Source: Propionibacteriales bacterium (GTDB lineage Bacteria > Actinomycetota > Actinomycetes > Propionibacteriales > Nocardioidaceae). From it: a DNA stretch of 36,686 bases. Below the pieces are notes generated by a model, which saw only the letters and a list, made by a program, of their open reading frames with translations, had not been told where the DNA came from and ran no database searches. The stretch is from assembly GCA_009377795.1 (NCBI GenBank), contig WHTJ01000006.1, positions 63,118 through 99,803 on the forward strand, given 5' to 3'. Shown piece by piece: positions 28,804-31,927 of this stretch (positions within the stretch are counted from its first letter, which is position 1; every line of letters starts with the position of its first letter). Both the position numbers and the translations under genes were made by a program.

Positions 28804-28880
28804 TGGTGGGCAGGGGCGGGATCGAACCGCCGACCTTCCGGTTTTCAGCCGGACGCTCGTACCAACTGAGCTACCTGCCC
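28804..28880 (-). tRNA. tRNA-Phe (GAA), CCA encoded
   Basis: The cloverleaf is complete: acceptor GGGCAGG pairs with CCTGCCC, D-arm GCTC/GAGC, anticodon arm TCCGG/CCGGA with loop CTGAAAA (anticodon GAA), and T-arm GGCGG/CCGCC with TTCGATC. Discriminator A at 28807 is followed by an encoded CCA (28804-28806). It is the last of three tRNAs on this strand. Confidence 0.95.
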
Positions 28881-28954
28881 GCCGTCAACGGCGGAACCCT
28901 CGGCCGTTGGGGCGCAGGCCACCATACCGTAGCGGCGCTTGGACTCAGAATGAG

Positions 28955-29034
<80 letters not shown>

Positions 29035-29082
29035 TCGTTGTGTGCCAAAGCAGCGCACGAATCCTACTCCATGCACACACCG

Positions 29083-29155
29083 TGCCCCCAACGGGATTCG
29101 AACCCGTGCTACCGCCTTGAAAGGGCGGCGTCCTAGGCCTCTAGACGATGAGGGC
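29083..29155 (-). tRNA. tRNA-Glu (TTC)
   Basis: Acceptor GCCCTCA pairs with TGGGGGC (one G-U). The anticodon loop CTTTCAA gives TTC; the T-arm ACGGG/CCCGT carries TTCGAAT. Discriminator A, no encoded CCA. It is the first tRNA in the Glu-Asp-Phe cluster. Confidence 0.95.
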
Positions 29156-29702: not shown

Positions 29703-30080
29703 TCAGATCAGCGACCCGAGCGCATAGCCGACGGTCGCGGCCGCCAGCCCGGCGGTCAGCGTGGTGCCGACGTTGAGCGCGGCCGCACCGAGCGCGCCGT
29801 CCTCGATCTGGCGCATGGTCTCCCAGGTGAACGTCGAGAACGTGGTGTATGCCCCGAGGAAGCCCGCACCCGCGACCGTCACGAGATCCGGCGACAGCCG
29901 GTACGCGTCCTCGGTCGCGACCAGCAGACCGAGGGCGAACGCTCCGCTCACGTTGACCACCCACGTGCCCCACGGGAATACCCGCTCGTGGCCGCCCTGG
30001 ATCATCTGGTCGAGCACGTACCGGCCGGCCGCGCCGGCGGCGGCGGACAGCGGGAAGAGGCAGAGCGCGAGGACGCTCAT
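29703..30080 (-). CDS. crcB: Fluoride channel subunit FluC/CrcB, second copy in operon
   Basis: 125 residues. CrcB motifs are [32 protein letters not shown] and [20 protein letters not shown], with four membrane segments. FluC proteins form dual-topology dimers that let fluoride leave the cell. The start overlaps the DUF190 stop as ATGA. Together with the first copy it probably forms a heterodimeric channel, as in other organisms with two adjacent fluC genes. Confidence 0.94.
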
Positions 30081-30430
30081 TCCTCCCTCCCGTCCGCTTC
30101 TCGTCCCGCGTACGTGATGACCTGCACGTCGTCCAGGATCACCAGCCCCTCGGTGATCAGCTCGTCGAGCTGCGGCAGGAAGTCCGCGATGCGTTCGGCA
30201 ATGTCGACGATCACGATGGCGATCGGCAGGTCCTCGGACAGGCTGAGGATGCGGGTCGTGTGCACGTGCCGGCTTGCGCCGTACCCCTCGATCCCGCGCA
30301 GTACGGAGGCGCCCGCAAGCCCCGCGGCGTGTGCGCGGTGCACGATCTCGGTGTAGAGCGGCTTGTGATGCCACACGTCGGTCTCGCCGACGAAGATGGT
30401 CAGACGTTGTGCGGAGCCCTGCAGCTTCAT
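30077..30430 (-). CDS. DUF190 domain protein
   Basis: 117 residues. The DUF190 pattern is [20 protein letters not shown] followed by [20 protein letters not shown] and [20 protein letters not shown], then [20 protein letters not shown]. These PII-like ferredoxin-fold proteins are commonly encoded with crcB and may regulate or bind the channel. Both ends overlap the two fluC genes by 4 bp, so the order fluC-DUF190-fluC is one translationally coupled operon. Confidence 0.92.
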
Positions 30431-30966
30431 CTCGACACCTCTCGAGCTCGATGACGGCGTACGACGATTCCACGACCCAGCACCAGGCCGAGGCTGGTCG
30501 CCGCCAGGCCGGCGGCGACCGCCGGGTGGCCGTCGGCCGTGAGTGCGTGCACTTCGAGCATCCACGTGCTGAACGTCGTGAACGATCCGAGGAAGCCAAC
30601 CGCCAGAAATGGCCGCAGATACCGGTACGGCACCCAGGATTCGAGCAACAGCGTGAGCAGGAGCGCGAGCACCGCCGCTCCCGACACGTTGACCGTGAAC
30701 GTCGCCCACGGCACCTGACCGGACTCGGCGGGCATCACCAGATCGATGCCCAGCCGGGCGTAGCCGCCGAGCGCCCCGCCGAGCGCGACGGCCCCAATGG
30801 CGCCGGCGCGCAGCCGTGCGGGCATACGGGTGGCCCGCCTGGACTCGCGGAACGGATCGGTGGCTCCCGACGGGGCAATGTCAGGCGGATCGTGCGCCAT
30901 GGCGTACGGATCGCCTGACCCGGCGTCCGGATCCACAGGAGATCCCTCGGTCGGCGTTCTCGGCAT
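30427..30966 (-). CDS. crcB: Fluoride channel subunit FluC/CrcB, first copy in operon
   Basis: 179 residues from ATG 30966 with GGAG seven bases upstream. After about 55 extra residues (acidic, Pro/Asp-rich, cytoplasmic) come the CrcB segments [38 protein letters not shown] and [20 protein letters not shown]. The N-terminal extension is longer than usual. It is the first gene of the operon, behind a candidate fluoride riboswitch, and its Shine-Dalgarno sequence lies in a stem that the switch could open. Confidence 0.92.
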
Positions 30967-30975
30967 GTGTGCGAC

Positions 30976-31056
30976 TCCTACCCGGGCATGCTTCATCTGC
31001 GTGGGTAGGGACCGTTGGTCGCAACGCCGCGACGGTTGACGGCAGGCCCCACTGCC
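30976..31056 (-). promoter_or_regulatory. Candidate fluoride riboswitch with Shine-Dalgarno-masking stem
   Basis: Minus strand, upstream of fluC. Hairpin 1 is GGCA-GTGGGGCC-TGCC (31056-31041), matching the Thermotoga fluoride aptamer hairpin at 12 of 16 positions. A second hairpin (TCGC/GCGA) follows, then GGTCCCTACC (31013-31004). Loop bases GGGGCC can pair with GGTCCC as the 6-bp pseudoknot, in the same order as in known crcB switches. Next, CCTACCC (31009-31003) can instead pair with GGGTAGG (30983-30977), which hides part of the GGAG of fluC. So the pseudoknot would free the ribosome site. The conserved UGAUG before the last strand is not found (CCAAC), so it is divergent. Confidence 0.5.
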
Positions 31057-31141
31057 GGGGATCCGGGCCAGTCTAGCCATCGGCGTACGTCGTCGAACCC
31101 GGCGCACCTGCGGCCGGCTCGCCAGCTCCTATCCTGGCCAT

Positions 31142-31927
31142 ATGGCCTCAGTCGAGGGACCTCCGCGGGGGCTGACCCGAGACGTCGACGTACGCCGATC
31201 CGGGGACCGGTTCCGGACCAAGACCGACTGGCTGGACTCCGCGCACTCCTTCTCCTTCGGCCCGCATTACGACCCGGCGAACACGCATTTCGGCTTGCTG
31301 TGCGTGCACAACGACGACGTCGTACAACCCGGAACCGGTTTCGACCCGCACTCGCACCGCGACATGGAGATCGTCACGTGGGTGCTGGAGGGCTCACTGG
31401 TGCACGAGGATTCGGCGGGTCATCGGGGCCTGATCTACCCCGGTCTCGCGCAGCGGATGAGCGCCGGTACGGGCATCGAGCACTCGGAGCGCAACGATTC
31501 CTGGCGACTGGGGGAGGAACGCCACTCCGACCCGGTGCACTTCGTTCAGATGTGGTTGCCTCCGGACACGGAATCGCTGTCGCCCGGTTATGAGCAGTTC
31601 GACGTCTCAGCGGCGCTTGCGGGCGGGGGGCTTGTGACGCTTGCCAGCGGAATGCCGGAGCATCGGGGCGCGGCGGCGGTGCGAATCGCCCAACAAGATG
31701 CGGCTTTGCACGCGGGGCGCCTGGACACCGGGGGACGCGTACGGCTACCGGTGGAGCCGTACGTCCAGCTGTACGTGGCGCGCGGCGCCGTAGACCTCGA
31801 GGGAAGTGGTCGACTGGAGCGCGGTGACGCGGCTCGGATTACTCGCGGGGAGGGCGAGCGCGTGACCGCCGTCGCTCCGACCGAGGTTCTGGTGTGGGCC
31901 ATGCGATCCCGACTTGCCGGCCTGTAG
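31142..31927 (+). CDS. Pirin-family protein (bicupin, YhhW-like)
   Basis: 261 residues. The N-terminal cupin has FDPHSHRDMEIVTWVLEGSL and MSAGTGIEHSERN, giving the His/His/His/Glu metal site typical of pirins and quercetinase-like YhhW. The C-terminal domain has LPVEPYVQLYVARGAVDLEG, a second cupin without ligands. Function is a possible iron-dependent oxygenase or redox sensor. It is divergent from the fluoride operon. Its last 183 bp are also read on the other strand as the tail of the IrrE-type protease gene. Confidence 0.93.
   Translation: MASVEGPPRGLTRDVDVRRSGDRFRTKTDWLDSAHSFSFGPHYDPANTHFGLLCVHNDDVVQPGTGFDPHSHRDMEIVTWVLEGSLVHEDSAGHRGLIYPGLAQRMSAGTGIEHSERNDSWRLGEERHSDPVHFVQMWLPPDTESLSPGYEQFDVSAALAGGGLVTLASGMPEHRGAAAVRIAQQDAALHAGRLDTGGRVRLPVEPYVQLYVARGAVDLEGSGRLERGDAARITRGEGERVTAVAPTEVLVWAMRSRLAGL

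Follow-up and report, generated by a model that had tools for sequence, protein, structure and literature searches.

A probable fluoride riboswitch of a G10-C38 subtype upstream of a fluC operon in a Propionibacteriales bacterium

Results

The fluC operon and its leader

We analyzed a stretch of 36,686 nucleotides from a Propionibacteriales bacterium (Nocardioidaceae; assembly GCA_009377795.1, contig WHTJ01000006.1, positions 63,118 to 99,803 of the forward strand). We call this whole stretch the window, and all coordinates are window positions. On the minus strand, a leader with an RNA element is directly followed by the operon fluC-DUF190-fluC. The first gene, fluC1 (30427-30966, with its ATG at 30966), encodes a CrcB family fluoride channel of 179 amino acids (PF02537, 78.7 bits, where the cut-off is 32.9). 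It is followed by a DUF190 gene (30077-30430; PF02641, 129.7 bits) and a second CrcB family gene, fluC2 (29703-30080; PF02537, 80.7 bits); the starts of these two genes are approximate. On the other side of the element, a pirin-family gene begins at 31142 on the plus strand. Three consecutive tRNA genes lie downstream of the operon (28807-29155, minus strand).

The leader contains a complete fluoride-riboswitch (crcB) fold on the minus strand at 31056-31005, with the sequence GGCAGUGGGGCCUGCCGUCAACCGUCGCGGCGUUGCGACCAACGGUCCCUAC. (Core positions follow the B. cereus numbering.) A first-pass annotation of this DNA had described, upstream of fluC, an aptamer-like hairpin that resembles the known crcB motif, whose loop could form a pseudoknot of 6 base pairs with one G-U, and both are present. 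P1 pairs GGCA (31053-31056) with UGCC (31041-31044), and the 8-nt loop of this hairpin (31056-31041) carries the 6-nt pseudoknot strand GGGGCC (positions 12-17; 31045-31050), which pairs with GGUCCC (positions 42-47; 31008-31013) as an H-type pseudoknot (31050-31045 with 31013-31008). The junction J1/3 is GUCAACC (31034-31040), in which AACC is conserved as in the crcB motif, and it is followed by P3, a hairpin of 6 base pairs (GUCGCG GCGU UGCGAC, the last pair being G-U; 31018-31033), so that junction and helix together span 31040-31018. The stems and the pseudoknot were assigned from sequence and covariation (for P3, also from relatives), and the junction and the core strand from the Rfam match and relatives.

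The core differs from that of the known aptamer. The core strand is C38 A39 A40 C41 (31014-31017) instead of the canonical UGAU, and position 10 (31052) is G instead of A. In known structures, positions 10 and 38 form a reversed Watson-Crick pair (PMC10687018), which is A10-U38 in the known aptamer; in the window, these positions are G and C. G39 and U41 are conserved in RF01734 and are A39 and C41 here. The bases of the linchpin pair A40-U48 (PMC8752731, PMC10687018) are kept, with A40 at 31015 and U48 at 31007, the first base of U48 A49 C50 (31005-31007). Among distinct cores, U48 is present in 125 of 125 (our model anchors at this base), and A40 in 122 of 125. The annotation had also stated that the conserved UGAUG was missing, which is partly right: U38, G39 and U41 are changed (UGAU-G to CAAC-G), but A40 remains.

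The fold is similar to RF01734 and covaries in relatives

The Rfam model for the fluoride (crcB) riboswitch, RF01734, picks exactly this stretch (31065-30999), with 21.7 bits and an E value of 0.0014 (for 701 bases and 4227 Rfam families). This is below the gathering cut-off of 34 bits, which is a curated threshold and not a structural feature. At the gathering cut-off, Rfam finds only tRNAs across the window, and the site was not among the matches listed from a whole-genome Rfam search; models based on relatives did recover it. A covariance model that was built from 14 relatives, without the window, gives the element 59.3 bits (E = 4.1e-13, genome-wide), and the element is the only clear match in its genome (the next is 21.1 bits). 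Given both E values, the fold is not due to chance.

In successive genomes of the same family, sub-threshold Rfam matches lie directly before fluC and share the motif GGCGGUGGGGCUCGCCGACAACCGC...GCCAACAGUCCCUACC. (A scan of contigs for FluC gave mostly distant loci, and those from Streptomyces were without a riboswitch match.) In a seed alignment of 18 sequences, 99.3% of cells are paired, and 10 of 16 pairs show two-sided changes. The covariation score is 0.386, versus 0.183 for shuffled alignments; none of 500 shuffles scored as high, and slid controls were far lower. Part of this signal reflects relatedness, because the seed mixes RNAs with G-C and with A-U at positions 10 and 38. Upstream of fluC in relatives, covariation is seen in P1, in P3, in the pseudoknot (a check that the annotation had proposed) and between positions 10 and 38.

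A subtype with G10-C38

Searches of the family, the class and the phylum, together with retrieved loci, gave 126 distinct hits (including three weak matches, L163, L164 and L165, that look false). Of these, 78 have G-C at positions 10 and 38, 44 have A-U, and 4 have neither. They vary together, as expected of a conserved pair, and we infer that G10-C38 would take the place of the reversed Watson-Crick A10-U38 pair. A39 accompanies G10-C38 in place of G39, and U41 is usually replaced by C. At positions 39-41, 67 of the G-C type RNAs read AAC, and 38 of the A-U type read GAU. In a tree of FluC, the 10-38 label requires about 4 changes on the best tree and 1 on well-supported branches, and the tree is poorly resolved. 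With about four independent changes and such a tree, a phylogeny-corrected test of the joint change at 10 and 38 cannot give a significant result, so a Fisher value for the association of the two positions should not be taken at face value as a probability.

RNAs of the G-C type were found in about 73 genomes or records, which belong to 18 coded families, and five genomes have both types. Rfam gives the G-C type RNAs that we tested 19.8-25.2 bits or no match, while A-U type RNAs score 32.2-51 bits. For example, two nearly identical RNAs, both before fluC, differ mainly at positions 10, 38 and 39, plus a few letters in the P3 loop: L152 (A10-U38-G39) scores 35.1 bits and L148 (G10-C38-A39) scores 24.1 bits. 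L152 also has C41 and still passes the cut-off, which shows that members of RF01734 can lack U41.

The change from A10-U38 to G10-C38 would be the swap of a tertiary pair, and the G10-C38 RNAs are a coherent and widespread actinobacterial subtype that lies under the cut-off of the standard model. The annotation's term "variant class" is apt if it is taken to mean a structurally coherent subtype, with no sign of a different ligand. In the literature that we searched, we found no earlier description of the subtype, which may nonetheless have been noticed before.

Outside of the Actinomycetota, there were no G-C type RNAs in 299 genomes from the phylum of L057, in a search that lacked a positive control. 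The phylum of L062 has one likely G-C type RNA, L274; two other matches, L275 and L276, look like chance. L274 (1501-1553; Trueperaceae) combines a G-C aptamer with a matching Shine-Dalgarno helix, and might reflect transfer or a contaminated assembly.

A predicted alternative helix that would cover the Shine-Dalgarno sequence

The Shine-Dalgarno sequence of fluC1 is AGGAG (30975-30979), 8 nt before the ATG. The annotation had proposed that bases next to the pseudoknot could pair there instead, and this helix stood up well. At the 3' end of the aptamer, the sequence CCUACCC (31003-31009) is fully complementary to GGGUAGG (30977-30983), which is followed by AG, completing AGGAG. These 7 base pairs are in the predicted minimum-energy fold. 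The anti-Shine-Dalgarno strand includes both U48 and the two final C of the pseudoknot strand, so the two folds are mutually exclusive.

The helix covaries in relatives. Among 59 G-C type loci with a Shine-Dalgarno candidate, the strand that starts with CCUAC at position 46 pairs with the Shine-Dalgarno strand in most. Beyond CCU/AGG, a locus has an average of 4.2 pairs between its own arms, versus 2.8 if the arms are swapped between loci (0 of 1000 swaps were as high). Matched changes are found in L154 (CCUACGUUG/CAACGUAGG), L259 (CCUGCGUG/CACGCAGG), L174 (CCUACAC/GUGUAGG), L162 (CCUGUCUG/CAGACAGG) and L265 (CCUAUCUCG/CGAGAUAGG).

In the window, the predicted energy of the Shine-Dalgarno duplex is -11.4 kcal/mol, and that of the pseudoknot duplex alone is -9.8. 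In the fold without the pseudoknot, pairs of the Shine-Dalgarno helix have probabilities of 0.73-1.0, and blocking the pseudoknot bases abolishes the helix in the predicted fold. In our proxy for the bound (holo) state, 2 of the 5 Shine-Dalgarno bases remain paired elsewhere. The folding stability of the whole leader is not unusual (z = -1.0), which is uninformative.

A putative -10 box, TAGACT (31070-31075, minus strand), starts about 19 nt upstream of P1, and a simple scan found no sigma-70 consensus pair. Of 79 FluC-linked relatives, 43 have TANNNT at 9-24 nt upstream of P1, while shuffled sequences average 4.1 and reach 12 at most. The position of this motif suggests that transcription begins at the aptamer. 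In some relatives (L193-L198, L226 and L232, from families f19 and f20), an extra hairpin such as CCGCGA...UCGCGG lies between the -10-like box and P1, which places the box farther away, about 31-37 nt upstream; the window has no such hairpin. We also considered transcription attenuation, but rejected it because no terminator was found in the leader. This agrees with a high-throughput assay in which transcriptional fluoride riboswitches were almost absent from Actinomycetota (PMC13273304).

Discussion

A probable fluoride-induced switch for translation

Taken together, the window's RNA is very probably a fluoride riboswitch of the G10-C38 subtype that turns on fluC1 at the level of translation, probably along with the coupled genes DUF190 and fluC2. 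Without fluoride, CCUACCC would pair with GGGUAGG and hide the ribosome site AGGAG. With Mg2+ and fluoride, GGGGCC would pair with GGUCCC, and A40 with U48; the CCU of the anti-Shine-Dalgarno strand would then be occupied, and the ribosome site would open. The net effect would be a translational on-switch. Several observations count against this reading: the unremarkable stability of the leader fold, the two Shine-Dalgarno bases that stay paired in the holo proxy, the few changes of the 10-38 pair on the FluC tree, and the core, where C41 replaces U41, and U38 and G39 also differ. In B. cereus, changing U41 to A abolished the response (PMC11077080).

Could the changed core imply a changed ligand? 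In other riboswitch families, a variant core can point to a new ligand (PMC7266159), and here three or four of the bases that are most conserved in the core change jointly. We consider it unlikely that the G10-C38-A39-C41 RNAs are a class of their own whose ligand properties have changed (to another ion, or to a strongly shifted affinity for fluoride) and which exists alongside the canonical type within the same genomes to give two levels of response. That the RNA is crcB-like but of altered specificity, sensing some other small anion or ion state, seems very unlikely. A fluC gene lies within 500 nt downstream of 61 of the 78 G-C type RNAs, and the remaining gene families are as for the canonical type. 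Other partners of the G-C type include a Na+/H+ exchanger (L046), a PPE protein (L251), Dynamin_N GTPases (L160 and, by sequence, L179 and L255) and MFS transporters (L192 and, by sequence, L264 and L210). The A-U type precedes an exchanger (L209), a GTPase (L207) and a PPE gene (L250). That both types precede the same gene families argues for the same ligand. Also, the fluoride pocket consists of Mg2+ ions that are held by backbone phosphates (PMC8752731), so a swap of bases need not alter selectivity.

It is also highly improbable that the RNA is a relic, decayed or blind to fluoride, and now works only as a hairpin that blocks the Shine-Dalgarno sequence (giving constitutively low translation, or a thermometer). 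The element is below Rfam's cut-off, and it scores less than the commonest subtype (64 vs. 75 bits). However, the window itself has compensatory changes in P1 (A-U for G-C; relatives have GGCG/CGCC) and in the pseudoknot (C-G for U-A), which show selection on the aptamer fold, and the core bases of the subtype are all intact. Finally, we give almost no credence to an ordinary canonical riboswitch that has drifted at random: its architecture, context and partner genes would be the same, but the substitutions recur together in about 76 other RNAs from 18 actinobacterial families, and mixed pairs are nearly absent.

Comparison to known RNAs

As a probable fluoride riboswitch of the G10-C38 subtype, the element shares P1, the AACC junction, P3, the 6-bp pseudoknot, A40 and U48 with RF01734 (such as the crcB RNAs of T. 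petrophila and B. cereus), as well as a place before fluC and overlapping partner genes. It differs by having G10-C38, A39 and C41 for A10-U38, G39 and U41 and by its score (21.7 bits, with the cut-off at 34), and where the crcB RNAs of RF01734 have a terminator, the window would block the Shine-Dalgarno sequence instead. The fluoride riboswitches of P. syringae and B. pseudomallei, which served as translational controls (PMC13273304), are more similar in this respect: they have no terminator, and their control is presumed to operate at the ribosome site. They were treated as ordinary members of RF01734, and we found no mention of a swap in the core (PMC13273304).

The alternation of a tertiary pair between G-C and A-U has a counterpart in an unrelated molecule. 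In tRNA, the Levitt pair (15-48) is a reversed Watson-Crick tertiary pair that can be either. As this is a different RNA, it is only an analogy for why the swap at 10-38 would be structurally allowed.

Because the subtype scores below Rfam's cut-off, fluoride regulation is probably under-annotated in many actinobacterial families. The exchange of A10-U38 for G10-C38 would show, from natural sequences, that selection acts jointly on the two bases of this tertiary pair, which is known from published structures, and the change of position 39 along with it points to a contact that could be tested. The near-identical L148 and L152 offer a ready-made test of the pocket with three bases.

Some of the relatives have unusual contexts. 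One RNA of each type lies directly before PPE-family genes (L250, 4551-4597, and L251, 120-176); in the literature that we searched, we found no paper that combines fluoride riboswitches, Mycobacterium and PPE. Genes for dynamin-family GTPases, an unexpected partner for control by fluoride, follow both types (L160, L179, L207, L214 and L255). And one actinobacterial genome (G208; L237, L242, L247 and L249) has eight fluoride-riboswitch-like elements, three of the G-C type and five of the A-U type, some of which are back to back.
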